NCBI RefSeq assembly: GCF_000252855.1
Contig: NC_017045.1
Span: 186,001-250,000 of the forward strand
Reading direction: 5' to 3'
From: Riemerella anatipestifer ATCC 11845 = DSM 15868
Lineage (GTDB): Bacteria; Bacteroidota; Bacteroidia; Flavobacteriales; Weeksellaceae
DNA length: 64,000 bases
The notes under the pieces were generated by a model. That model made no database searches. It worked only from the letters and a program-made list of their open reading frames with translations, and was not told the origin of the DNA. Within the stretch, counting starts at the first letter, position 1. Every line of letters starts with the position of its first letter. Below, in pieces: positions 3,637-29,256 of the stretch. The position numbers and the translations under genes were made by a program.

Positions 3637-3701
3637 GAGAATGAGGGCTTTAGAGAGAGTTCACTTTCTACTGATTAACTAAGAATTTATTATAAAAAAC
3701 G

Positions 3702-6700
3702 ATGAGAAAGTTAAATTTTGCTTTACTATTGCTACTGGTTTGGACTAGTGCTTTTGGGAACAATTCGCCTTTGTGGTTGAGAAATATTGCCATTTCTCCT
3801 GATGGAAAAAAAATTGCGTTTACCTATATGGGAGACATTTATGCAGTCTCTACGGAGGGTGGTTCTGCAGTAAGGCTTACTACACATCCAGCTTACGATT
3901 CAGACCCTGTATGGTCACCTGATGGGAAATTTATTGCGTTTAGTAGTGATAGAGAAAATGGGTTTCAACGAATTTTTATTATGCCTTCTCAAGGTGGAGA
4001 GGCAAAGCAAGTTACCTTCCATTCTCAGGCAGCATTGCCATTAGCTTTCTCTAAAGATGGGAAAAATATTATCTATTCGGCTAATCTCCAAAATAGCCCT
4101 CAGAATGTTATTTTTCCATCGGCTTCCATACAGTTATATCAAATTTCTATTGATGGAGGACAGCCAAAGCGAATTTTCAACTCTTCTACTAAGTCTATTA
4201 GCTTGACTTCCAACGGAGAGGCGATGTATTATGAAAATATTAAAGGCAACGAAAATCAGTGGCGTAAACATCATACCTCTTCCGTTACGAGAGATATATG
4301 GAGATACGATTTTAAGTCTAAAAAGCACACTCAAATTATCAATTGGAAGGGAGAAGACCGAAATCCTGTATTGAGTTCAGACGGGAAAACTTTATATTTC
4401 CTTAGTGAAAGAGCGGGTAATTTTAATGTGTTTAAAACTTCTGTTGCACAGCCTTCTAAGATAGAACAGGTTACTTTTCATAAAGATTTTCCAGTACGTT
4501 ATTTATCTGTAGCGAATAACGGCTATATAGCTTACAGTTATGATGGCGAAATTTATTTATCCAAACCGATGGGCAAACCTCAGAAGGTAAATGTAAATAT
4601 CATTAGTGATGTTTCTAATCAGCAGAGTAAATTTATGGCATTCAGTTCGGGGGCAACTTCATCTTCGGTTTCTCCAGACGGTAAGCAGATAGCAATGGTA
4701 ATCAGAGGAGAAGTTTTTGTAAATTCTACCGACTATAATACAACTAAACAAATCACTAAAACGGCAGCTGCAGAGCAAGGTGTAAGTTTTTCAGCAGATG
4801 GGAGAAGTCTTGTTTATGCCAGTTATAGAGATGGATATTGGGATTTGTACAAAGCAAGTATTCAAAGAAAAGAAGATCCTAACTTTTCTAATGCAACTCT
4901 AATTACCGAAGAAAAACTCATTCCTAGTGATAATTCAGAGAAAATGTATCCTCAATATTCGCCTGATGGTAAAGAGGTAGCTTTTGTTCAGAACCGAACG
5001 CATATTGCTATTTACAATTTTGAAACTAAAAAAATCAGAAAAATTACAGACCCTAAGTATCAAACAGAGAGAAATGGATATATCAATTACGAGTGGTCAC
5101 CTGATGGGAAATGGCTTGTAGTACAGTATATTGCGAGGGATAGGGTACCTTATTCTGATATAGGTATCATAAGTACAGAAGGTGGTAAGGAGATTGTGAA
5201 TATTACAGACTCTGGTTATTTTGATACCAATCCTCGTTGGGCGTTAGATGGTAATGCTATTATTTGGAAATCTGAACGCTACGGAATGCGTAATCATGCT
5301 TCTTGGGGTTCTATGAGCGACCAAATGATCGTGTTTCTCAATAGAGAAGCCTACGACAAATACCGTATGAACAAAGAGGAATACGAACTTTTAACTGAGG
5401 CTGAAAAGAATGAAAAGAAATCCGAAACGGAAGATGCTAAAGATGGCAAAGACGATAAAAAAGAAACGCCTAAGAAAGATAAAAAATCTAAAGATATCAA
5501 TATAGAATGGGAGAATCTATCCGAACGAGTGGTAAGACTTACACCAAATTCTTCGGAGCTTGGCGATGCCATTATTAGTAAGGACGGAAAGAAACTCTAT
5601 TATCTAGCTTCTTTTGAAAAAGGGTTTGATTTATGGGTACACGATTTAAGAGAAAGGTCAACAAAACTATTGTCTAAACTCAATGGTTCGTCGGCTTATT
5701 TAGATGCAAGTAAAGATGGTAAGAAAATATTTTTACTGAGTGGACAAAAAGCTAAACTTTTAGAATTGCCATCAGAAAAGATAAAAGACCTTAGTTTTTC
5801 AGCAGATATGAAGTTGGATTTAACTAAGGAGAGAGAGTTTATGTTTGATATGGTGAAAAGAGAACTCAAAGAGCGTTTTTATGTTAAAGATATGCACGGA
5901 GTTAATTGGGAAAAACTCACAGAGCAATACCGAAAATATCTTCCGTATATCAATAACAACTACGATTTTTCAGAAATGCTTAGTGAGCTTTTAGGAGAGC
6001 TTAATGTATCACATACAGGTTCTAGGTATCGTTCTCCGTCATTAAGTCAAGAGGCTACGGCGGAGCTAGGTGTATTTGTCACTCCACAGGATAATGGGCT
6101 TTTGATAGAAGAAATACCTGTGAATAGTCCGTTTGATAACTATCGTTCTAAAGCTAAGCAAGGGCATATTATTGAAAAGATAGATGGGGAAGCTATTACA
6201 TCTAAAGTAGACTATTATCAGTATTTGGAAGGTAAAGCAGGAAAGAAGATTTTAATTTCTCTTTATAATCCTAAAGATGGAACACGCTGGGACGAAGAAA
6301 TAAAAGGGATAAATGCGTGGAGATGGAACGAAATCCTTTATCAAAGATGGATTAAGCAAAGAGCCGCAGATGTAGAAAAATGGTCTGGCGGAAGGTTAGG
6401 CTATGTGCATATTCGTTCTATGGGAGATGATAGTTTCCGTGAGGTGTATTCTGATGTTTTAGGGAAATATAATAATAAAGAAGGTGTCGTAATAGATATT
6501 AGAAATAATGGAGGTGGGCGTTTGCACGAGGATATAGAGGTTTTCTTTAGTGCTAAAAAATACCTTACTCAGAAAGTTCAAGGTAAGAAGTATGGAGTAA
6601 TGCCTAGCCGCCGTTGGACGAAACCTTCTATTATGGTAATTAACGAAGCAGACTATTCTAATGCACATGGTACGCCGTGGGTTTATAAGCACTTAAAACT

Positions 6701-6941
6701 GGGTAAGTTGGTAGGAGCACCAGTTCCAGGAACAATGACTTCAGTTAATTGGGTTACCTTGCAAGATTCAACATTAAATTTTGGAATTCCTGTCGTAGGC
6801 TATGAAAAAGAAGATGGTACTTATCTAGAAAACTTTGAACTTCAGCCAGATGTAGAGGTTTATTTAGATCAAGAAAAAGCCAATCAAGGCGAGGATAATC
6901 AGCTTAAACGAGCGGTAGAAGAACTACTGAAAGATTTGTAA
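3702..6941 (+). CDS. Tricorn-like S41 family serine protease with TolB/WD40 propeller
   Basis: 1079 residues with signal peptide (MRKLNFALLLLLVWTSAFG). Residues about 25-540 hold repeated SPDGK units (SPDGKKIAFTYMGD, SPDGKFIAFSSDR, SPDGKEVAFVQN), i.e. a TolB/WD40-like propeller. A low-complexity charged linker rich in Lys and Glu follows at about 565-605. Then come a second short propeller, a PDZ domain around 790-870 (ELGVFVTPQDNGLLIEEI) and an S41 peptidase domain with GYVHIRSMGDD and DIRNNGGG. The probable catalytic Ser is Ser986 in DYSNAHG. Tricorn-like proteases degrade peptides; the signal peptide places this one in the envelope. The last 228 nt (6714-6941) recur, diverged but still open, at 10251-10478. 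Unlike that copy, this one is not followed by the terminator at 10494, which suggests the 3' end or its flank has been exchanged. Confidence 0.92.
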   Translation: MRKLNFALLLLLVWTSAFGNNSPLWLRNIAISPDGKKIAFTYMGDIYAVSTEGGSAVRLTTHPAYDSDPVWSPDGKFIAFSSDRENGFQRIFIMPSQGGEAKQVTFHSQAALPLAFSKDGKNIIYSANLQNSPQNVIFPSASIQLYQISIDGGQPKRIFNSSTKSISLTSNGEAMYYENIKGNENQWRKHHTSSVTRDIWRYDFKSKKHTQIINWKGEDRNPVLSSDGKTLYFLSERAGNFNVFKTSVAQPSKIEQVTFHKDFPVRYLSVANNGYIAYSYDGEIYLSKPMGKPQKVNVNIISDVSNQQSKFMAFSSGATSSSVSPDGKQIAMVIRGEVFVNSTDYNTTKQITKTAAAEQGVSFSADGRSLVYASYRDGYWDLYKASIQRKEDPNFSNATLITEEKLIPSDNSEKMYPQYSPDGKEVAFVQNRTHIAIYNFETKKIRKITDPKYQTERNGYINYEWSPDGKWLVVQYIARDRVPYSDIGIISTEGGKEIVNITDSGYFDTNPRWALDGNAIIWKSERYGMRNHASWGSMSDQMIVFLNREAYDKYRMNKEEYELLTEAEKNEKKSETEDAKDGKDDKKETPKKDKKSKDINIEWENLSERVVRLTPNSSELGDAIISKDGKKLYYLASFEKGFDLWVHDLRERSTKLLSKLNGSSAYLDASKDGKKIFLLSGQKAKLLELPSEKIKDLSFSADMKLDLTKEREFMFDMVKRELKERFYVKDMHGVNWEKLTEQYRKYLPYINNNYDFSEMLSELLGELNVSHTGSRYRSPSLSQEATAELGVFVTPQDNGLLIEEIPVNSPFDNYRSKAKQGHIIEKIDGEAITSKVDYYQYLEGKAGKKILISLYNPKDGTRWDEEIKGINAWRWNEILYQRWIKQRAADVEKWSGGRLGYVHIRSMGDDSFREVYSDVLGKYNNKEGVVIDIRNNGGGRLHEDIEVFFSAKKYLTQKVQGKKYGVMPSRRWTKPSIMVINEADYSNAHGTPWVYKHLKLGKLVGAPVPGTMTSVNWVTLQDSTLNFGIPVVGYEKEDGTYLENFELQPDVEVYLDQEKANQGEDNQLKRAVEELLKDL

Positions 6942-7076
6942 TAATTTTTTTAAATAGATATAACAAAATGGATGATATAAATTATTATAGTTTTTTTACC
7001 TTTTTAGATAATATTTACTGTCGCTCATTTGTTTTTAATGTGTATTGTTCATTAAAGTGAGATTTGTTTTTTTTCT

Positions 7077-7084
7077 TAGTTTTG
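7077..7084 (+). promoter_or_regulatory. Orphaned -7 element of the porin-like gene, cut off by IS982
   Basis: TAGTTTTG fits TAnnTTTG and lies 50 nt left of the IS copy. If the IS and one target-site copy are removed, this element would be about 45 nt from the ATG now at 8131. It is the plausible original promoter of that gene (inference). Confidence 0.4.
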
Positions 7085-7118
7085 TAGGTAGAGAAACGCA
7101 AATGTAATCCGTTTAAAA

Positions 7119-8116
7119 TAATAAAAAACTCGTTGTGCATTTTAAATAATACTGATTTTTAGATGATTTAATTTTCTTTGGAAGATAAATTTATTGATAT
7201 ATTGAATAACCGTTGCGGCGGTTATTTTACTGATTATCCTTGTTTTAAAGCCTTCAAAAGTTTTAGCATAGTTTCTTTTAATCATAAATTGGTCGCAAAG
7301 TTGAGAGAAAAATGTCTCAATTCGTTTTCGCTTTTTCTTGTACAATGAAAATTGAGGAATATAATCTTTCTGATTACTTCTCATTGGTGTATCTAATTTA
7401 ATATTAGCATAGTTAAATAAATCTATTTGAACTTTTGCTGATAAATAGCCTCTATCTCCAATTAAAGTACAGTTTCGCATTTGCTCACCAATATCTTTTA
7501 AATAGTGGATGTCGTGAACGGATGCAGGGCTTATATCAAAATTCTTAATCACACCATTTAAAGAACATACTGCGTGTAGTTTATAGCCATAGAAATATAA
7601 TTTCTGTGAAGCACAATAACCATATGTTGGTGAAGAATAGGATTGCTCTTTACAAATTTTTGAACGAGTAGAACGAGCGTTTTCACAAACTTTCATTGGC
7701 ATGCTATCAACGATAAAAATATCTTCAAACTCATTGAACTCCATCGAAATACGCTGTCTAATTTGCTCTGTTTGTAGGGATAGTCTTCGTTTTCGCTTAT
7801 TGTAAACACTTCTTTCAATTTTGTTTATCAGAGAGTTTGGCAATTTTCTAAATAACTGTAATTCGCTATCAATACTCAAGTATTCAGCAGTAATATTAAG
7901 ACTTATGACTTCTAAATCGCTCATTTTAGGTGTTCTTCTCTGATAACTAATCAGTTGATTTTCTGAAAAAAGTCCTAAAACTTCCAAAATTCTTTCATAT
8001 ATTTGCTCTAAGTTGTTCATTTATATCGTTTTATAGCAAAAACAATATACTGATTTTCAGTCTAATAAACAACTCTTGTTTTTTTCATTTCATAATGCAC
8101 AACGGGTTAATAAAAA
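7119..8116 (-). mobile_element. IS982-family insertion sequence, ISRa1-like, copy 1
   Basis: The element spans 7128-8107 (980 bp). It begins ACTCGTTGTGCATT and ends AATGCACAACGGGT, imperfect terminal inverted repeats. It is flanked by a perfect 9-bp target duplication TAATAAAAA at 7119-7127 and 8108-8116. It carries one transposase gene on the minus strand. The second copy at 18931-19910 has the same length, the same protein and, where compared by eye, the same sequence, so at least one move is recent. The end upstream of the transposase faces the porin-like gene. Confidence 0.95.
7142..8020 (-). CDS. IS982-family transposase (copy 1)
   Basis: 292 residues, full length for the family. The DDE catalytic triad is visible: Asp105 in IFIVDSMPMK, Asp189 in LIGDRGYLS and Glu235 in RIETFFSQL. 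The N-terminal part (about 1-95) is helical and the DDE domain runs to about 285. The stop codon is only 14 nt from the IS end. The protein is identical to the product at 19018-19896, so both elements are presumably active or recently active. It would catalyse cut-and-paste transposition of its own element. No frameshift is needed for expression. Confidence 0.95.
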   Translation of the reverse strand: MNNLEQIYERILEVLGLFSENQLISYQRRTPKMSDLEVISLNITAEYLSIDSELQLFRKLPNSLINKIERSVYNKRKRRLSLQTEQIRQRISMEFNEFEDIFIVDSMPMKVCENARSTRSKICKEQSYSSPTYGYCASQKLYFYGYKLHAVCSLNGVIKNFDISPASVHDIHYLKDIGEQMRNCTLIGDRGYLSAKVQIDLFNYANIKLDTPMRSNQKDYIPQFSLYKKKRKRIETFFSQLCDQFMIKRNYAKTFEGFKTRIISKITAATVIQYINKFIFQRKLNHLKISII

Positions 8117-8130
8117 CAATAAAGATAGTG

Positions 8131-9450
8131 ATGCAATTAAGATTGATATTTTTAGTAATGCTATTATTAGTAGTAAATTTATATGCACAAGAAAAAGACT
8201 CTATTGTACAAAAAACAGATACTTTGAGAGCCATTGAAAAATTAAAGTATCAACAACAGCCTGGGTTAGCTCTTGCAGCATCTAAGATTTTTTTTTCGGA
8301 TAAAAGGTACTCTATTAGTGGGTTTGGAGAGTTTAATTATGTGCCTATTCAAGATAATGTAAATACCAATGTTGGAGATTTAGAGTTATATTATTCAGGA
8401 CTTTATAGATTTGCAACTTTTTTTGGTTATCGTATTACTGATAAACTTATTTGGAATTCAGAGTTTCAGATTGAGTTTTTACATCATAAAGCAGAAGAAA
8501 CTCATCACGAAATTGTAATAGAAGCCTTTTTAGATTATCTTTTTAAAGATTATTTAAAAGCTCGTATGGGTTTTTATCCTTTAACTATAGGCTATGTTAA
8601 TAATAATGATGAGCCTATTATGTTTTATTCTGTAAACCGTTCTGAGGTAGAAAGGCTGATTACACCATCTACTTGGATAGAATTTGGAGCTATGTTTTAC
8701 GGTAATATTTCAAAAGATTGGAGCTATGCACTTGGTTTTTCTCAGGGGTTAAATAATAAAAACTATTTAAGTGGTTCATGGATAAGACAAGGAAGAGAAA
8801 TAAGGTTTGATATGCCTAAATCTATTTCTACAAATCTTCAAATAAACTACACTGGTATTAAGAATTTAACATTATCAGCTTCTGGGTACTATGGCAATTC
8901 TGGTCAAGGGGAGATGGTGGAAATCAACAGCAAACAGGTTAAAGTAAATAGTAAAATTAATCTAACAACGGCTTATGCAAAGTATGATTGGAAAAACTTT
9001 AGATTTATAACACTTGGAACTTATGGACAACTTGGAGATACTGAAAAAATATTTGAACTTACTAAAAATGAGAGTGGTCAAAATGGACAAGTTTTAGGGA
9101 AGGAAGTTTATGGATACCTATTTGAGTTAGGTTGTGATGTTTTACCTTATCTAAGAGGAGGTAAGAGTAATAAACCTGCTAAAGAAACATTTTTGTATGA
9201 TACTCATAAAATGAAGTTAAGTTTTTTTACTCGATATGAGAGACTAAATACTCATCAAAGTATTCATAAATTTCTTAATGCTTTGCCTAGGGTGGAAAAT
9301 AATATGAATATTTGGACATTTGGTGTCAATTTTAATACTAAAGAAAATATAGTGTTTAAAACCAATTATCAGTATAGATTAAACAAATTTGCAAATGATC
9401 CTAATCCTGTGAAAAATATATTTGAAATGGGTATTGGTTTTATTTTTTAA
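8131..9450 (+). CDS. Porin-like outer-membrane beta-barrel protein
   Basis: 440 residues from the ATG at 8131. The ATG at 8095 lies inside the IS terminus and is unlikely to be native. MQLRLIFLVMLLLVVNLYAQ is a signal peptide. The rest is rich in alternating aromatic and polar strands and ends IFEMGIGFIF with a C-terminal Phe, typical of outer-membrane barrels. Strands such as ARMGFYPLTIGYVNN and TWIEFGAMFYG resemble phosphate-selective porin O/P type proteins, but substrate specificity cannot be read. The IS982 insertion ends 14 nt before the target duplication finishes upstream of this ATG and separates the gene from its likely promoter at 7077. It lies between the intact S41 gene and decayed duplicates of downstream genes, so it looks like imported cargo. 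Confidence 0.75.
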   Translation: MQLRLIFLVMLLLVVNLYAQEKDSIVQKTDTLRAIEKLKYQQQPGLALAASKIFFSDKRYSISGFGEFNYVPIQDNVNTNVGDLELYYSGLYRFATFFGYRITDKLIWNSEFQIEFLHHKAEETHHEIVIEAFLDYLFKDYLKARMGFYPLTIGYVNNNDEPIMFYSVNRSEVERLITPSTWIEFGAMFYGNISKDWSYALGFSQGLNNKNYLSGSWIRQGREIRFDMPKSISTNLQINYTGIKNLTLSASGYYGNSGQGEMVEINSKQVKVNSKINLTTAYAKYDWKNFRFITLGTYGQLGDTEKIFELTKNESGQNGQVLGKEVYGYLFELGCDVLPYLRGGKSNKPAKETFLYDTHKMKLSFFTRYERLNTHQSIHKFLNALPRVENNMNIWTFGVNFNTKENIVFKTNYQYRLNKFANDPNPVKNIFEMGIGFIF

Positions 9451-9474
9451 TTAAAGGAATCCTATTCTAGAATA

Positions 9475-9772
9475 TAAAAAAACAAAAAAAGATGTGGCTT
9501 ACTAATCTTCGGATTTGGTTAAGATTTTTGAGAAGAAGTTTAGGTTTGAAGAGAAGCTATTAGCTTTCCAAATCAAAGATTTTTTAGAAGATTATTTGGA
9601 CGATGAACTTTTTAAAAAAATAGGAGATGTTAATCTTTTGGACAAAACTTTAACTATAAAAGTAAAATCTCCATTGCTAAAAAATGACTTTAGATTGAGG
9701 AAACCTTTTTTTATTCAAAAATTTAAAGAAGTAGCAGGTGAAAATATGGTGGAGGAAGTCTATTTTGTTTAG
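9475..9772 (+). pseudogene. Decayed DUF721 (DciA-like) gene copy
   Basis: From SSDLVK onward this encodes the same protein as the intact gene at 11489-11785 (KFRFEEKLLAFQIKDFLEDY here, KFGFEEKLLAFQIKGFLEDY there), about 90 percent alike. Its 5' end is broken: the ATG-AAG-AAT start is lost and an in-frame TAA lies at 9503-9505. Only a TTG at 9515 could start an 85-residue product. It sits tail-to-tail with a decayed recombinase fragment, as in the intact pair, so it belongs to one duplicated block. Confidence 0.85.
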
Positions 9773-10250
9773 TGTTTTCTTTCTTTCTTTTTCTAGTTCT
9801 ATTACCATTTTTTCGGCATTGGTATTAATTTTTGACTTTATAGGTATAAAGAATTTTGCAGGATTTTTAACAAATGTGTTAAAAATTTCTCTATAGATTA
9901 ACTCTACTTCTCCAAATTTAACTTTTCTAGAACGAAACGCTAACGGCATCGATAATCCAAAACTTACAATAAAGTTAAAAAATCTGATTAGGAATACCGT
10001 GATGAAACTAATCCAAAAAGTTCCCATATCAATATCGAACCCTTTTCCGTATATGGTTAAAGCTAAGTTACCAGCGGCAAAGGTTAATGTGTCTAATGTC
10101 TAAATCCAATCCTAAAAAGTTACCAATAGGAGCTGAGGCACCTAAGAATACTCTGAACCAAAAGTTAGAAATAACGTTCGCCCAGTTTTTAGAATAAAAT
10201 ACAGATATGCTTTGTGCTGCCTTTGTATTGTTAAGATAAGCATTTAAAAT
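9766..10250 (-). pseudogene. Decayed C-terminal fragment of recombinase-like membrane protein
   Basis: The minus strand encodes two shifted pieces, about 10250-10068 (SISVFYSKNWANVISNFWF) and about 10045-9766 (MGTFWISFITVFLIRFFNF), that match the last 160 or so residues of the intact product of 11782-13812. A frameshift lies around 10080 (HINLCRW instead of HITFAAG), the normal stop is lost and the N-terminal three quarters are absent. Homology ends abruptly near 10250, where a copy of the S41 3' end starts on the other strand. Confidence 0.85.
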
Positions 10251-10478
10251 GGTGCTCCAGTTCCAGAGACAATAACTTCGGTTAATTGGGTTACACTGCA
10301 AGATCCAACATTAATCTTTGGAATTCCTGCGGTAGGCTATGAAAAAGAAGATGGTACTTATTTAGAAAATTTTGAACTTCAGCCAGATGTAGAAGTTTAT
10401 TTGGATCAAGAAAAAGCCAACCAAGGAGAAGATAATCAGCTTAAAAGAGCGGTAGAAGAACTGCTGAAAGATTTATAA
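10251..10478 (+). pseudogene. Second copy of the 3' end of the S41 protease gene
   Basis: 228 nt aligning without gaps to 6714-6941, from GAPVPETITSVNWVTLQD to the stop VEELLKDL. The frame is still fully open for the last 75 codons, but there is no start codon and no upstream part of the gene. It is followed at 16 nt by a strong terminator, which may be the original terminator of the S41 gene. No function is expected; it is a rearrangement scar. Confidence 0.9.
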
Positions 10479-10493
10479 AATAAATAAAAACTA

Positions 10494-10525
10494 AAATCCC
10501 TGTTATAGATTTGTAACAGGGATTT
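10494..10525 (+). terminator. Rho-independent terminator (probably once of the S41 gene)
   Basis: AAATCCCTGTTA (10494-10505) and TAACAGGGATTT (10514-10525) form a perfect 12-bp stem with an 8-nt loop, followed by TTTAT. Confidence 0.85.
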
Positions 10526-10568
10526 TTTATGTAAAAAACGCTATTTTTGGATATTCTTTTAACATAAT

Positions 10569-11477
10569 ATGATTAAAACAGAAAAACAGGGATTATTACA
10601 ACTATTTAAAATAGCATCACCATATCTTATTTACACAACACTGTATGCTATACTTGTGTTAGGTCTAGAGGAGCTTTTTGGAGACCATATTTATAAAATA
10701 TCGGGGCAAATAGGCTCTGTATTTGGTCTTGCAATTGCATTTTTCTTGGGATTTAGAATGAATTCCGCATACGACCGTTGGTGGGAAGCGAGAAAGATAT
10801 TTGGAGAACTTACCAATAATTCTAGGAGCTTTGTGGCTAAAATCTATGCTTATTACAGTAATGATAAGAATATCAACTTAGCTGCTCTAGAAAAAAACGC
10901 TAAAATATATGACCTTATTCAATTGACTATCGCTTATATACGACAGTTTAAAAATGAAATTCATAATAATCCTAAACCTATCTTTGATGAAAAATCAAAG
11001 GTGTTACTAGAGAAGTATAACATCAACGAGGAACATAAAATTTCTAATGAATTGTTGGTAAGTATTTCTAAAGAAATAGAAGAAGACTTTAAGAATACGG
11101 CAAATATTGAAAAAAGCGATTTGATGCAGCATATCAATCGTTTTTATGATATACAAGGTAAGGCAGAAAGGATAAAAAATACTCCTTTTTTAATGATTTA
11201 TAGTGCCTTTACTAAGATTATAGTGAGTTTTTATGTAGTTTTAATTCCTTTGTTTATAGGAGATATAGATTTGGGTGGAGAGAAAAGCGGTCTAGAATTC
11301 TTAGCTATTCCTATTATGGTGATTATCAGCACTTCTTTTTTAACTATAAATAAGTTAGCCAACCTTTACGGAGAACCTTTTTCTGAAAATAAAACATCTG
11401 TAACGGTAACCGAAATTTGTAACACTATCGAGAGCAATTGTAAAGAAGTTCAATCTAAATTATCAGTCAAAAATTAG
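10569..11477 (+). CDS. Bestrophin-like (UPF0187) membrane channel protein
   Basis: 302 residues. Hydrophobic segments lie near residues 15-35, 50-65, 220-240 and 245-262. The segment FFLGFRMNSAYDRWWEARK is the characteristic bestrophin/YneE signature (NxxYxRWWEgR). Bacterial bestrophins form pentameric ion channels in the inner membrane; ion selectivity cannot be told from sequence alone. The gene starts 92 nt after the S41 3'-end remnant and is followed after 11 nt by the intact DUF721 gene, probably one transcript. It occupies the same relative slot between S41 3' end and DUF721 that the porin-like gene occupies in the other block. Confidence 0.85.
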   Translation: MIKTEKQGLLQLFKIASPYLIYTTLYAILVLGLEELFGDHIYKISGQIGSVFGLAIAFFLGFRMNSAYDRWWEARKIFGELTNNSRSFVAKIYAYYSNDKNINLAALEKNAKIYDLIQLTIAYIRQFKNEIHNNPKPIFDEKSKVLLEKYNINEEHKISNELLVSISKEIEEDFKNTANIEKSDLMQHINRFYDIQGKAERIKNTPFLMIYSAFTKIIVSFYVVLIPLFIGDIDLGGEKSGLEFLAIPIMVIISTSFLTINKLANLYGEPFSENKTSVTVTEICNTIESNCKEVQSKLSVKN

Positions 11478-11488
11478 CATATTATTTA

Positions 11489-11785
11489 ATGAAGAATAAG
11501 AAAAAAAGGGCTTATCAGTCTTCGGATTTGGTTAAGATTCTTGCGAAGAAATTTGGTTTTGAAGAGAAGTTGTTAGCTTTCCAAATCAAAGGTTTTTTAG
11601 AAGATTACCTAGATGATGAACTTTTTAAAGAAATAGGAGATGTTAATCTTTTGGATAAAACTTTAACCATAAAAGTAAAATCCCCATTGCTAAAAAATGA
11701 TTTTAGAATGAGGAAAACTTTTTTTATTCAAAAATTTAAAGAAGTAGCAGGTGAAGAAATCGTAGAGGAGGTGTATTTTGTTTAG
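11489..11785 (+). CDS. DUF721 domain protein (DciA-like)
   Basis: 98 residues, intact from MKNKKKRAYQSSDLVKIL. DUF721 proteins include DciA, the helicase loader/operator of bacteria lacking DnaC; a role with DnaB is possible by family but not shown here. It starts 11 nt after the bestrophin-like gene. Its stop codon overlaps the stop of the convergent gene by 4 nt (TTAG at 11782-11785). A decayed duplicate lies at 9475-9772. Confidence 0.85.
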   Translation: MKNKKKRAYQSSDLVKILAKKFGFEEKLLAFQIKGFLEDYLDDELFKEIGDVNLLDKTLTIKVKSPLLKNDFRMRKTFFIQKFKEVAGEEIVEEVYFV

Positions 11786-13812
11786 TTTTTCCCCTCTTTT
11801 TCTAGCTCTATTACCATTTTTTCGGCATTGGTATTAATTTTTGACTTTATAGGTATAAAGAATTTTGCAGGGTTCTTAATAAAAGAATTAAAAATCTCTT
11901 TGTAGATGAGTCTTATTTCTCCAAAATTAACCTTTCTAGAACGGAACGCTAATGACATTGACAACCCAAAACTTACAATAAAGTTAAAAAATCCGATTAG
12001 GAATACCGTGATGAAACTAATCCAAAAAGTTCCCATATCAATATCGAACCCTTTTCCGTATATGGCTAAAGCTAAGTTACCAGCGGCAAAGGTAATGTGT
12101 CTAATATCTAAATCTAATCCTAAAAAGTTCCCAATAGGAGCTGTGGCACCTAAGAACACTCCAAACCAAAAATTAGAAACAACACCAGCCCAATTTTTAG
12201 AATAAAATGCAGAAATGCTTCGTGCCGCCTTAGCTCCAAAGGCTTTGTTAAGGTATGGATTTTTAATAATTCGCTGGGGAATTTGGTAAAACCTAGAATT
12301 GTTGCTGATATTTCCAGATATAATCCCTGAAATAAATAGAAATACACCAGCTATACTAGCGTGTAGAATAGCCTTAGACTCTACTGGATTTAAGTCTCTT
12401 AAAAGTTTATTAGCCTTATCTATGGCAAGGTTTTGTTGGAAGATAATATCCAATCCATAGATAATAAGCAGAGCTACAGGGAAAGCAAGTAATACATTGC
12501 CTACAAACGCAATGAATTGAGTTCTAAATAATTTTGATACTAAGTCTGCAAAATCAGTATAGTTTTTAGAAGTATTTTTATCTTCGGATAATACTTTCGC
12601 CATGGTTGCCGCAGTCATAGCAGGTTGTTTGGTTGCTAAGGTATAATGCAAAAGATAAATGAGTACAAAGCCCATAGCATAGTTGAATGAGTACAAAAAT
12701 GCGTGGGTAAATTCACTACCATTACTATAGCTGTAAAGCATTTTGAGAACACATAAAAACCCTACGATGATACCACCTCCAGCAGCTTTTTTAAACATAT
12801 CCATGTACTGTTTATAATTGAAAGCGATATAATGAGTCCCTGCTTGTGCGGTATGGGTAGTAATGAGGTGAGAAAGTTGTAAGGTGCTATCTGCAAATAG
12901 TTCGCTGAAATTGTTTCTGTGAGATTTGTACCTAAGAATATTTTCTACCAAAGTTTTAGATTGCTCAAGATGAGTGGTTTTTTCCTCTGTAACTAATAGC
13001 GGTAATATTTCAGAAATTCTCACTAACTGTTGTCTAATTTTCATTAAAGACTGGTTGGTCTTACTAGACAACCCATATTTAGAGGTGTTTTTAAATGCTA
13101 TTTTAATAAATTCTAAACATTGGCTGAGATAAACTTTAGCTTGTTTATAATGTTCGTTTTTAGCGGAAATTTGGACTTTTGGGTCTTCTTGGAATAGCTC
13201 TAAAAGACAATCAATTTCATTTTGTAGAGCAATAAAAGGATTGTCAAAATTTTTATATTCAGGAGCCATTTTAACCACTTCTACATCTAGAGCATTTCCT
13301 ATGGCTCTCCATGCTAAAATATTGACGGATAGAAACAAATCTTTCTGAACGGATTCCTGTGCAAAAAGACTCTCAAATCCCATAATTTGTAGAAAAGTAT
13401 TCTTTTCTTCTTCTGAGAGGTTAAGCAGAAAATCAAAATTCTGTTTAGAACTAAGTAGTATTTTTTCTATAACGAAAGAAACAGTGTCTTCATCTTCTAC
13501 TGCTGGGAGTACTTTAGCAATTACTCTCTTTTTAAACTCTGCAAAGAAAGAGTTTTCGGATAAAATATTCGCTTCCGTAAGAGCAAGAACCATTCGTCTT
13601 CCTCGGAAAATATTTTTTAGATAATGAGCGAAATTATTTTTTAAATCTTCATTTTCGGTGAGTATATTTAATAAATGGCTAAAGCCTTCCTTTTTAGTAG
13701 CTTCGAATATTTCAGACAAAGGTTCTAGTGCAGAAGTTTCGTTCTGAAATTTAAAATACTTTGTAATGAGAGATTCTAATGATTCTATAGGACGATTACT
13801 AAATATATTCAT
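11782..13812 (-). CDS. Site-specific recombinase-like membrane protein (Gcr/COG4389 type)
   Basis: 676 residues from the ATG at 13812 (MNIFSNRPIESLESLI). A longer start at 13857 would overlap mtgA, and its first residues look like a read-through of that gene. The N-terminal half (to about residue 330) is soluble and helical. The C-terminal half has several membrane segments, e.g. GGGIIVGFLCVLKMLYSY, FALIYLLHYTL-like, FIAFVGNVLLAFPVALLI and FLFISGIISGNIS. This layout fits the family annotated as site-specific recombinase Gcr, whose recombinase activity is poorly supported; a membrane role is as likely. It follows mtgA by 5 nt and is probably co-transcribed with it. The last 160 codons are duplicated and decayed at 9766-10250. 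Confidence 0.7.
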   Translation of the reverse strand: MNIFSNRPIESLESLITKYFKFQNETSALEPLSEIFEATKKEGFSHLLNILTENEDLKNNFAHYLKNIFRGRRMVLALTEANILSENSFFAEFKKRVIAKVLPAVEDEDTVSFVIEKILLSSKQNFDFLLNLSEEEKNTFLQIMGFESLFAQESVQKDLFLSVNILAWRAIGNALDVEVVKMAPEYKNFDNPFIALQNEIDCLLELFQEDPKVQISAKNEHYKQAKVYLSQCLEFIKIAFKNTSKYGLSSKTNQSLMKIRQQLVRISEILPLLVTEEKTTHLEQSKTLVENILRYKSHRNNFSELFADSTLQLSHLITTHTAQAGTHYIAFNYKQYMDMFKKAAGGGIIVGFLCVLKMLYSYSNGSEFTHAFLYSFNYAMGFVLIYLLHYTLATKQPAMTAATMAKVLSEDKNTSKNYTDFADLVSKLFRTQFIAFVGNVLLAFPVALLIIYGLDIIFQQNLAIDKANKLLRDLNPVESKAILHASIAGVFLFISGIISGNISNNSRFYQIPQRIIKNPYLNKAFGAKAARSISAFYSKNWAGVVSNFWFGVFLGATAPIGNFLGLDLDIRHITFAAGNLALAIYGKGFDIDMGTFWISFITVFLIGFFNFIVSFGLSMSLAFRSRKVNFGEIRLIYKEIFNSFIKNPAKFFIPIKSKINTNAEKMVIELEKEGKN

Positions 13813-13817
13813 AAAAA

Positions 13818-14462
13818 TTATTTTAAAGAGATAAAGTTCATTTGCCTCATAATCCATTTATGCTTCCTATTGAGGTAAGGTGTTGGGTTTTTAGGGTCGT
13901 ATTTCTTTGGGTTAGGCAATACGGCAGCTATCCAAGCGGCTTCGCTTTTGGTAAGGTCTTTAGATGATTTATTAAAATAGTACTGCGATGCCGCTTCTAC
14001 CCCAAAAACGCCCTGTCCCATTTCTATAGAATTAAGGTATCTTTCTAGAATAATATCTTTAGACCAAATCTTTTCAATAATAAAGGTATAGACAGCCTCT
14101 AGCCCTTTTCTTATCCAACTTCTGCCATTCCATAAGAAGATGTTTTTGGCAGTTTGTTGAGAAATGGTGCTGCCTCCTTGTATGCTTTTGCCTTTTTCGT
14201 TGTGTTTCATAGCCCTTTCAATAGCTTTAAAATCAAAGCCGTTGTGGGTGTAAAAATTTTGGTCTTCGGAGGCTATAACGGCTTTTTTTACATGGTTGCC
14301 CATTTCAGAAAATGCAATATAATCTCTATCTAGTTTGTGGTATTTTATCAATCCTTCTACCTGTGTAATGGTAATGATGGGATTGAAAAACCGCCCACTA
14401 ATTAGCATTAGTATATTTATCAGTACAACTAAAAACAGTATTTTCTTAATGAATTTAAACAT
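13818..14462 (-). CDS. mtgA: Monofunctional biosynthetic peptidoglycan transglycosylase
   Basis: 214 residues, close to the usual size. One N-terminal membrane anchor (FLVVLINILMLISGRFF) precedes a GT51 domain with the signature EDQNFYTHNGFDFKAI (catalytic Glu in EDQ), GGSTISQQTAKN and LERYLNSIEMG. It polymerises lipid II into glycan strands on the outer face of the inner membrane. A -7-like element TATTTTTG (minus strand, 14501-14494) lies about 32 nt upstream of the ATG. The recombinase-like gene follows at 5 nt. Confidence 0.95.
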   Translation of the reverse strand: MFKFIKKILFLVVLINILMLISGRFFNPIITITQVEGLIKYHKLDRDYIAFSEMGNHVKKAVIASEDQNFYTHNGFDFKAIERAMKHNEKGKSIQGGSTISQQTAKNIFLWNGRSWIRKGLEAVYTFIIEKIWSKDIILERYLNSIEMGQGVFGVEAASQYYFNKSSKDLTKSEAAWIAAVLPNPKKYDPKNPTPYLNRKHKWIMRQMNFISLK

Positions 14463-15869: not shown

Positions 15870-16435
15870 ACCTGTTGTGCAATTTAAACTATATTGGTTT
15901 TAATATTATTAATATTTCTATTGAAAATAAACTTATTAATGTATTGTAGTTAAGGAATTTATTTTGGCAAGTATCCTTGTTTTAAAGGCTTCAAATGATT
16001 TAGCATAGTTTCTTTTAATCATAAACTGCTGACAAAGTTGAGAGAAAAATGTCTCAATTTGTTTTCGCTTTTTCTTGTATAATGAAAATTGAGGAATATC
16101 ATCTTTCTGATTCCTTCTCATTGGTGCATCTAATTGAATATTAGAATAGTTAAATAAATCTATTTGAATTTTTGCTGATTAAATATCCTCTCTTTCCAAC
16201 TAAAGTATAGTTTTGCATTTGCTCGCCCATATCTTTTAAATAATGGATGTGGTGAACGGAGGTAGAGCTTAAAAATTCTTAATAACACCTTTTAAGGAAT
16301 ATATTGCCTGTAGTTTATAGCTATAGAAATACAATTTCTAACCATATGTTGGAGAAGAATAGGATGACTCTTTACAAATTTTTGAACGAGTAAAACGAGC
16401 TTTTTCACAAACTTTCATGGGCTTACCATAAGATA
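15870..16435 (-). mobile_element. Truncated, diverged IS982-family element
   Basis: Begins ACCTGTTGTGCAATTTAAA, matching the ACTCGTTGTGCATTTTAAA end of the complete copies. It carries a decayed transposase 3' half on the minus strand: 16121-15936 encodes KKRKQIETFFSQLCQQFMIK, the catalytic Glu region, against KKRKRIETFFSQLCDQFMIK in the intact copies. Further upstream the frame is broken several times. Homology ends near 16435, so about 40 percent of the element, including the other terminus, is missing. The divergence shows it is older than the two complete copies. Confidence 0.85.
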
Positions 16436-16727
16436 AATAGTTTCGTTGGTGACTGTGATTTTGGAATTTTTTTCTCATTTTAAAAACAATATCGCTCACT
16501 GACCTTTTCTGTGCGAATGTTTAAAAAGAGAGAGTATGTGCTATCTTACTCTTATAGAAATCCCTTTGTTGTTATAGACAATTCTTTCTTCCTCATAACC
16601 ATGCAAATCAATTAAGGTATCCTTAGTGATAAAAAACGTTTCCGAAAATTTTTAGTTTACATAATTTATGAGTACATTCAATTTTATTGGATACTATGGA
16701 ATCCTTAAGGGCTCTTTATTTTCTATA
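16436..16727. other. Intergenic stretch with a gene fragment
   Basis: No complete gene seen. The minus strand at about 16651-16541 has an open piece (KFSETFFITKDTLIDLHGYE, ending GISIRVR and stop) without a start codon, probably the tail of a lost gene. Confidence 0.4.
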
Positions 16728-18922: not shown

Positions 18923-18930
18923 CAAAGATA
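18923..18930 (-). promoter_or_regulatory. -7 element of the catalase gene at the IS982 junction
   Basis: Reads TATCTTTG on the minus strand (TAnnTTTG), 36 nt before the catalase ATG. Seven of its eight bases are the IS target duplication, so the element survives but everything upstream of it, including the original -33 region, is now IS sequence. Confidence 0.65.
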
Positions 18931-19917
18931 ACCCGTTGTGCATTATGAAATGAAAAAAACAAGAGTTGTTTATTAGACTGAAAATCAGTATATTGTTTTT
19001 GCTATAAAACGATATAAATGAACAACTTAGAGCAAATATATGAAAGAATTTTGGAAGTTTTAGGACTTTTTTCAGAAAATCAACTGATTAGTTATCAGAG
19101 AAGAACACCTAAAATGAGCGATTTAGAAGTCATAAGTCTTAATATTACTGCTGAATACTTGAGTATTGATAGCGAATTACAGTTATTTAGAAAATTGCCA
19201 AACTCTCTGATAAACAAAATTGAAAGAAGTGTTTACAATAAGCGAAAACGAAGACTATCCCTACAAACAGAGCAAATTAGACAGCGTATTTCGATGGAGT
19301 TCAATGAGTTTGAAGATATTTTTATCGTTGATAGCATGCCAATGAAAGTTTGTGAAAACGCTCGTTCTACTCGTTCAAAAATTTGTAAAGAGCAATCCTA
19401 TTCTTCACCAACATATGGTTATTGTGCTTCACAGAAATTATATTTCTATGGCTATAAACTACACGCAGTATGTTCTTTAAATGGTGTGATTAAGAATTTT
19501 GATATAAGCCCTGCATCCGTTCACGACATCCACTATTTAAAAGATATTGGTGAGCAAATGCGAAACTGTACTTTAATTGGAGATAGAGGCTATTTATCAG
19601 CAAAAGTTCAAATAGATTTATTTAACTATGCTAATATTAAATTAGATACACCAATGAGAAGTAATCAGAAAGATTATATTCCTCAATTTTCATTGTACAA
19701 GAAAAAGCGAAAACGAATTGAGACATTTTTCTCTCAACTTTGCGACCAATTTATGATTAAAAGAAACTATGCTAAAACTTTTGAAGGCTTTAAAACAAGG
19801 ATAATCAGTAAAATAACCGCCGCAACGGTTATTCAATATATCAATAAATTTATCTTCCAAAGAAAATTAAATCATCTAAAAATCAGTATTATTTAAAATG
19901 CACAACGAGTAAAGATA
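18924..19917 (+). mobile_element. IS982-family insertion sequence, ISRa1-like, copy 2
   Basis: The element spans 18931-19910 (980 bp) from ACCCGTTGTGCATT to AATGCACAACGAGT. It is flanked by a 7-bp target duplication AAAGATA (18924-18930 and 19911-19917). Inverted orientation relative to copy 1. Intact direct flanks for each copy show that no inversion between the two has occurred since insertion. The duplication is shorter than the 9 bp at copy 1; IS982-family elements are known to vary. Confidence 0.95.
19018..19896 (+). CDS. IS982-family transposase (copy 2)
   Basis: 292 residues, identical to the product of copy 1, with the DDE triad Asp105, Asp189 and Glu235. The start codon is 88 nt inside the element. 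The gene is transcribed away from the catalase gene. It should be functional. Confidence 0.95.
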   Translation: MNNLEQIYERILEVLGLFSENQLISYQRRTPKMSDLEVISLNITAEYLSIDSELQLFRKLPNSLINKIERSVYNKRKRRLSLQTEQIRQRISMEFNEFEDIFIVDSMPMKVCENARSTRSKICKEQSYSSPTYGYCASQKLYFYGYKLHAVCSLNGVIKNFDISPASVHDIHYLKDIGEQMRNCTLIGDRGYLSAKVQIDLFNYANIKLDTPMRSNQKDYIPQFSLYKKKRKRIETFFSQLCDQFMIKRNYAKTFEGFKTRIISKITAATVIQYINKFIFQRKLNHLKISII

Positions 19918-28421: not shown

Positions 28422-28505
28422 GAGAGTTATTATTTTCTAGGTCTAGAAACTACAAACATAAAGTTTTAATACTTTTTTAGTTGCTGTTGTAAAAATAAAA
28501 AATGG

Positions 28506-28552
28506 GGGGTGACTTTTAGACGAAGTCATCAAAAAAGTTACCCCTATTTTTT
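28506..28552 (+). terminator. Terminator after the GLPGLI gene
   Basis: GGGGTGACTTTT (28506-28517) pairs with AAAAGTTACCCC (28533-28544) with one G-T wobble, followed by TATTTTTTT. It may also mark the edge of the IS1595 relic that starts here. Confidence 0.65.
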
Positions 28553-29175
28553 TATCAATTTCCATCACTCTTTTTCCATTTCCTTTACCTCTTTTATCCA
28601 CCTCCATTCGCATTCTTTTAAATGTAGGTTAAAAGTAGATTTTACCCCATTAAATTTTGTTAATCTTCCACTTCATAAAACTCCAAAAACTTTCTATTCC
28701 ATTAATGTGAACACCATTCTGATTGGAAAGACTTTTACTCTTGTCAATCCTAAAATGCTTCTCCTATCCCATATTTAGAAGTCCACTATAACCTCGCCAA
28801 ACCTCGGTAAACAAAATACTTTCCAATGAAACTTTTCCTCGAATAACTTTTCTTAATGTTTTATTTTTTGCATTTGGAATCAATTCGGTATAAACCCTAC
28901 CCTCTCTTTCAAAAACGCTAAAAACAGGTGGTTTCCATGTTCCTATTCCTCGTTTATGCGGCATATTAGCCCCCTTTAATCTTCTTGCTCTAAAAAAATA
29001 AACTTAAATCTGCTTATTGTTTTTCAAAAATCACCTCCCTAAAAATTCTAAAATAGCGGTTAATGGTATTCCTGTTGAGTTCTAAAATTTCTGCGGTTTT
29101 AGTCGTAGCAATATTGCTACAAAAACACTTAATTATTTTTTTTATTTTATAATCGCTAATTTTACTCCTATTCAT
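28545..29175 (-). pseudogene. IS1595/ISXO2-family transposase relic
   Basis: Read on the minus strand from ATG 29175: MNRSKISDYKIKKIIKCF, then TTKTAEILELNRNTINRYF (helix-turn-helix), a stop, then an open piece 28964-28764 with MPHKRGIGTWKPPVF and GKVSLESILFTEVWRGYSGL. After another frameshift HINGIESFWSF (the conserved Asn-Gly-x-Glu-Ser motif of the family) and NPTFKRMRMEV follow, to about 28550. Several stops and shifts make it inactive. No clean terminal repeats were found. Confidence 0.85.
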
Positions 29176-29256
29176 AGGACTCATCAACAAAGTTAATCAT
29201 TGTTTCATAGTCTTAAGCCATAGTAATTTAAGACTTATCTAAATAGTTTTTCTGAT

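Follow-up and report, generated by a model that had tools for sequence, protein, structure and literature searches.

In the naturally competent Vibrio cholerae, the effectors of T6SS clusters are displaced sequentially: a newly arriving module is anchored through homology in the upstream gene, and the previous 3′ end is pushed downstream with the previous cargo, leaving remnants (PMC5361080). Homology-facilitated illegitimate recombination, known in competent bacteria, has homology at one end only (PMC3240628). Natural competence has been reported for Riemerella anatipestifer ATCC 11845 (PMC6533540) and R. columbina (PMC6533540, PMC7965970). We describe here a locus of the duck pathogen R. anatipestifer ATCC 11845 in which gene ends are duplicated around different cargo.

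Our window is a stretch of 64,000 nucleotides (C1:186001-250000) from the genome of this strain, a single contig of 2,164,087 bp (G000). It was compared with five other Riemerella genomes, one genome per species (six including G000), among them G001 (R. anatipestifer CCUG25054, a 95% match), G003 (R. columbina) and G004, a second Riemerella genome that is ~93–96% identical to G000 outside the shared tract described below. The features of the locus, in window coordinates, are as follows.

3702..6941, plus strand: intact tricorn-like S41 protease gene (Pfam Peptidase_S41, Tricorn_C1, PD40)
6942..7127: AT-rich spacer from S41 to the IS, with no counterpart elsewhere in the genus
7128..8107, minus strand: ISRa1-like IS982 element, 980 bp (transposase 7142-8020, minus strand)
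8134..9450, plus strand: cargo 1, porin-like gene for a putative outer-membrane beta-barrel, with weak porin matches via relatives
9475..9772, plus strand: decayed dciA (DUF721) copy, 88.6% identical to the 11495-11785 side, frameshifted and with its start lost
9773..10247, minus strand: PF10136 gene, decayed 3′ part only (tblastn-type match, stops present)
10246..10251: illegitimate join of recombinase and S41, old and identical in G004
10251..10350, plus strand: S41 remnant, first part, probably imported already decayed, identical to G004
10351..10478, plus strand: S41 remnant, second part, probable former end of the resident S41, diverged from G004
10493..10526: terminator-like hairpin whose stem has 13 pairs, as listed for the minus strand
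10569..11477, plus strand: cargo 2, bestrophin-family channel gene (PF25539, 148 bits)
11489..11785, plus strand: intact dciA (DUF721; PF05258, 19.8 bits, cut-off 24)
11782..13857, minus strand: intact PF10136 gene (547 bits), annotated "site-specific recombinase"

The duplication was confirmed. Two copies of the S41 3′ end are present in direct order (6714-6941 and 10251-10478; 228 nt, 90% identity, ungapped), and likewise two of dciA with the 3′ part of the PF10136 gene (9478-10223 and 11495-12231; 88.6%). The repeat matches in G000 have E-values of 1e-84 to 1e-278, and an own-genome search found no third copies of the duplicated ends. These measurements bear out the first-pass annotation, which had placed the S41 end, the DUF721 gene and the recombinase 3′ part twice in the same order, had aligned the 228-bp S41 ends without gaps, had put the copies roughly 8–12 percent apart and had noted different cargo in the two blocks. 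The whole-unit repeat expected of a simple tandem duplication is absent, the porin-like gene of block 1 and the bestrophin gene of block 2 belonging to unrelated families. In block 1, dciA no longer has a start codon and contains 4 inserted nt close to its beginning; of the PF10136 gene, the 5′ ~75% is missing, and what is left, residues ~530-690, is interrupted by one TGA and one TAA. The alignments further revealed an allele mosaic: the 5′ end of the decayed dciA resembles the native allele of G004, and the decayed recombinase end has a C-terminal variant in common with the native gene of G000. We therefore rejected the divergence between the copies as a clock.

The DUF721 gene probably encodes DciA, the helicase loader, with PF05258 scores (19.8 and 21.0 bits) just under the gathering cut-off of 24. 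It adjoins the PF10136 gene across the genus, and the two are convergent in Riemerella and Epilithonimonas, also where cargo is absent. The PF10136 protein has about four hydrophobic, membrane-like segments, and its annotation as a recombinase looks doubtful. From the pairing with dciA in the absence of cargo and from these segments, we conclude that the gene is not a mobility gene of the block; nor is it likely that its product brought about the transfer, and the annotation should not be read here as evidence of a mobility gene. A recombinase-driven cassette was rejected on the same grounds, the gene being a fixed dciA neighbor in cargo-free genomes.

The porin-like protein is 100% identical in G004 and at most 41% identical elsewhere in the order. 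The protein itself had no match in Pfam or NCBIfam and no PDB relative in a profile search, and its distant relatives gave one match each to BBP2 (7e-5) and Porin_O_P (0.0025); the label "porin-like" is weakly supported by these sequence matches. A single-sequence structure model reached a pLDDT of 32 and was of no use for the fold. Carriage of the block by a plasmid or phage was considered and rejected, as no plasmid matched and the phage collection gave a single match, at 27%. For the bestrophin, G004 alone has a relative copy, which is decayed, and the stretch with the hairpin and the bestrophin (10479-11477) is confined to G000 and G004 among the six genomes. The strong terminator marked at 10494 in the first-pass annotation was confirmed as the hairpin at 10493-10526, which is symmetric enough to be read on the plus strand, too. 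An RNA element at the locus was rejected, as there was no Rfam match.

Between S41 and the porin-like gene lies an IS982 element that had been overlooked earlier. The element is complete: it has inverted ends and is flanked, at 7119-7127 and at 8108-8116, by the two copies of a 9-bp target duplication, TAATAAAAA. Its transposase scores 262 bits for NF033520 (cut-off 130). With its 879-bp transposase ORF and ~980-bp length, it resembles ISRa1, published as 979 bp with an ORF of 879 bp (PMC13277301), but it is here a passenger in the spacer and did not bring about the duplication. The window has another full ISRa1-like copy at 18929-19910, which matches this one without a difference over 982 bp, and a partial IS982 copy (83%) at 15874-16437. 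As the target duplication is kept in G000 and both IS junctions are rearranged in G004, S41, spacer and porin-like gene were formerly contiguous. A search for the origin of the spacer (6942-7127) gave nothing outside its own genome except a 26-base match. In G004, the genes to the left of the IS are prophage-like (named by eye).

A large part of the locus is shared with G004 at ~100% identity: S41 from ~3.75 kb, the IS, the porin-like gene, the decayed dciA and recombinase ends and the initial ~100 bp of the S41 remnant. Across 3752-6944 and 7131-10350, ~6.4 kb, only three bases differ (3917, 6839 and 7491), the first two being the sole differences in the intact S41 after 3751. This near-identity has the sharp edges expected of a transformation tract, compared with differences of 2–10% outside. 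From 10351 on, a 20-bp deletion and many substitutions separate the genomes; block 2 is ~93% identical overall (85–98% per 300 bp), and two control regions are mostly 90–98% identical, with two windows above 99%. Given a background divergence of 4.5%, the tract was computed not to be attributable to chance. Both edges lie in donor–recipient homology, the left at the S41 start and the right inside the S41 remnant, ~100 bp past the join of recombinase and S41. G004 shows the same join and, throughout block 1, the same decay, the flanks of the join included, so that the join predates the transfer; its presence in an independent genome also argues against an assembly error. In G004, block 1 runs from the porin-like gene through the decayed dciA and recombinase end to the S41 remnant, and block 2 holds the terminator, the decayed bestrophin, intact dciA and intact PF10136 gene. 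The intact S41 of that genome lies ~2 Mb from the porin block, abutting another IS copy, and the contiguity of the tract there is thus reconstructed, not seen.

The S41 remnant of G000 appears to be a hybrid. Compared with S41, its codons 1-32 show five nonsynonymous and five synonymous differences, whereas codons 33-76 show none and ten, respectively (Fisher p = 0.03; 20 codon differences in total); in G004, the same S41 end has five nonsynonymous and five synonymous differences and the 20-bp deletion. Read most simply, these counts make the second half of the remnant the working end of S41 until recently, with the terminator and the bestrophin belonging to it. The lack of nonsynonymous change in this half also agrees with the earlier suggestion that the position of the terminator, after the remnant, fits an exchange of the S41 3′ end.

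On these comparisons, we consider it probable that block 2 is resident and that the S41 body and block 1 came by a recent import, homologous at both ends. Before the event, G000 would have had a single block of S41, terminator, bestrophin, dciA and PF10136 gene, and a G004-like donor would have carried S41, the IS, the porin-like gene and the broken dciA, followed by the remains of the PF10136 3′ part fused to a 3′ end of S41. The join at ~10248 would stem from an older, illegitimate event in the donor lineage, such as a tandem duplication, an unequal crossover or a one-sided homologous insertion. The donor DNA, entering probably by natural transformation, would have crossed over on the left near the S41 start, at about 3654-3917, and on the right, at about 10350-10376, between the incoming S41 3′-end fragment and the end of the resident S41. 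This would have replaced the S41 body and added the porin-like gene with the decayed ends. The resident block would have stayed downstream, preceded by the terminator and the final ~130 bp of the former S41. The near-identical tract with its edges, the decay pattern and the copies are shown by the sequences; we infer the direction of transfer, from a few codons, and also the transformation route and the nature of the earlier event. The first-pass annotation was right that DNA of a related lineage had been joined by homology in S41, as seen from the near-identical tract with its edges in S41 homology. Its polarity is not supported, however: the part that is ~100% shared with G004 is ~3.7–10.35 kb, the body of the intact S41 with block 1, and it is block 2 that appears resident.

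Both genomes have the full double arrangement with the same join, as would also be expected if the double block were old, made by tandem duplication or unequal crossover in their common ancestor, and homologous replacement had later copied the left part between the lineages, with no block added. A tandem duplication would give the order of recombinase and S41 with one novel join. This course of events seems unlikely, though worth keeping in mind, as the differing cargo would need a later cargo swap and the 3′ half of the remnant is free of nonsynonymous change in G000, unlike in G004. Identity alone has no direction, and the lineage of G004 could have been the recipient of the exchange, or a third lineage could have donated to both; the IS target duplication is intact in G000 and the surroundings of the IS are derived in G004, which would suit such a course. 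We nevertheless hold it to be improbable, since an undecayed S41 end directly follows the crossover in G000 only. The one-step additive import into G000 proposed earlier, with S41 homology at one end and an illegitimate join at 10250 at the other, is compatible with the architecture and has a precedent in homology-facilitated illegitimate recombination (PMC3240628), but for G000 it is largely refuted and very improbable, the join and decay being letter-for-letter the same in G004 and hence older than the transfer and the tract edge lying 100 bp beyond the join within homology; for the older donor event, it may hold.

The check across genomes proposed with that model gave a mixed outcome: G004, one of the five others, has the same double arrangement, and G001 is without the cargo and has S41 and dciA apart. 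The single-block genomes predicted by the two-ended import and by the earlier model were not found among the Riemerella genomes compared, one per species. In G001, we found no relative of the porin-like protein or the bestrophin and no linkage of S41 and dciA, S41 being on one contig and dciA beside bioA on another; in G003 and G005, an unrelated gene follows S41 and dciA is elsewhere. From these layouts, the adjacency of S41 and dciA is not general in the genus. The partners of bioA, dciA, S41 and a small gene are swapped between G001 and G000/G004, and as the orientations fit no single inversion, a single simple inversion behind the adjacency was rejected and several rearrangements are needed. 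A small lipoprotein-like gene follows bioA in G000 and G004, and a truncated, frameshifted piece of it lies at the S41 3′ end of G001 (L070:6899-7333), a sign of repeated rearrangement there. In G000, an insert of ~5.5 kb (L085:5877-11420, C1 ~2.135 Mb), whose genes were named by eye as DNA adenine methylase and restriction-like, lies between a small lipoprotein-like gene and an rsmB-like gene, a place at which G004 does not have it. G004 has, between its S41 remnant and terminator, a 3.6-kb element (L034:5431-9070) with inverted, ~350-bp IS-like ends, a TAAATAA duplication and two genes, for a zinc-metalloprotease-like and a beta-propeller-like lipoprotein (named by eye); related IS-like remnants are found at 28442-29220 of the window. 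The S41 3′ end beside dciA could conceivably be a recurrent landing place in R. anatipestifer-group genomes, each cargo leaving a remnant and the successive cargos being the bestrophin, the porin-like gene and the protease/lipoprotein pair flanked by inverted IS ends in G004; we regard this as rather doubtful.

No new process is needed for this locus. A competent bird pathogen would have gained an additional gene for a surface protein, next to one for replication, in a well-preserved case with a readable scar; it is clear but ordinary gene mixing and leaves the general understanding of gene transfer unchanged. Homology-facilitated illegitimate recombination would explain the older join of recombinase and S41, but the recent event has both ends in S41 homology. 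The likeness to effector displacement in V. cholerae, in the anchoring by upstream homology and in the displaced 3′ end and cargo, is one of process and not of gene content: the cargo here is a porin-like gene and a bestrophin, there are no effector–immunity pairs and only one layer of remnants, and both crossovers in G000 appear homologous. With ordinary allelic exchange in naturally transformed R. anatipestifer, the locus shares a near-identical tract of several kilobases in a diverged background; it differs in that sequence was added, because the incoming DNA would have had two S41 3′ ends.
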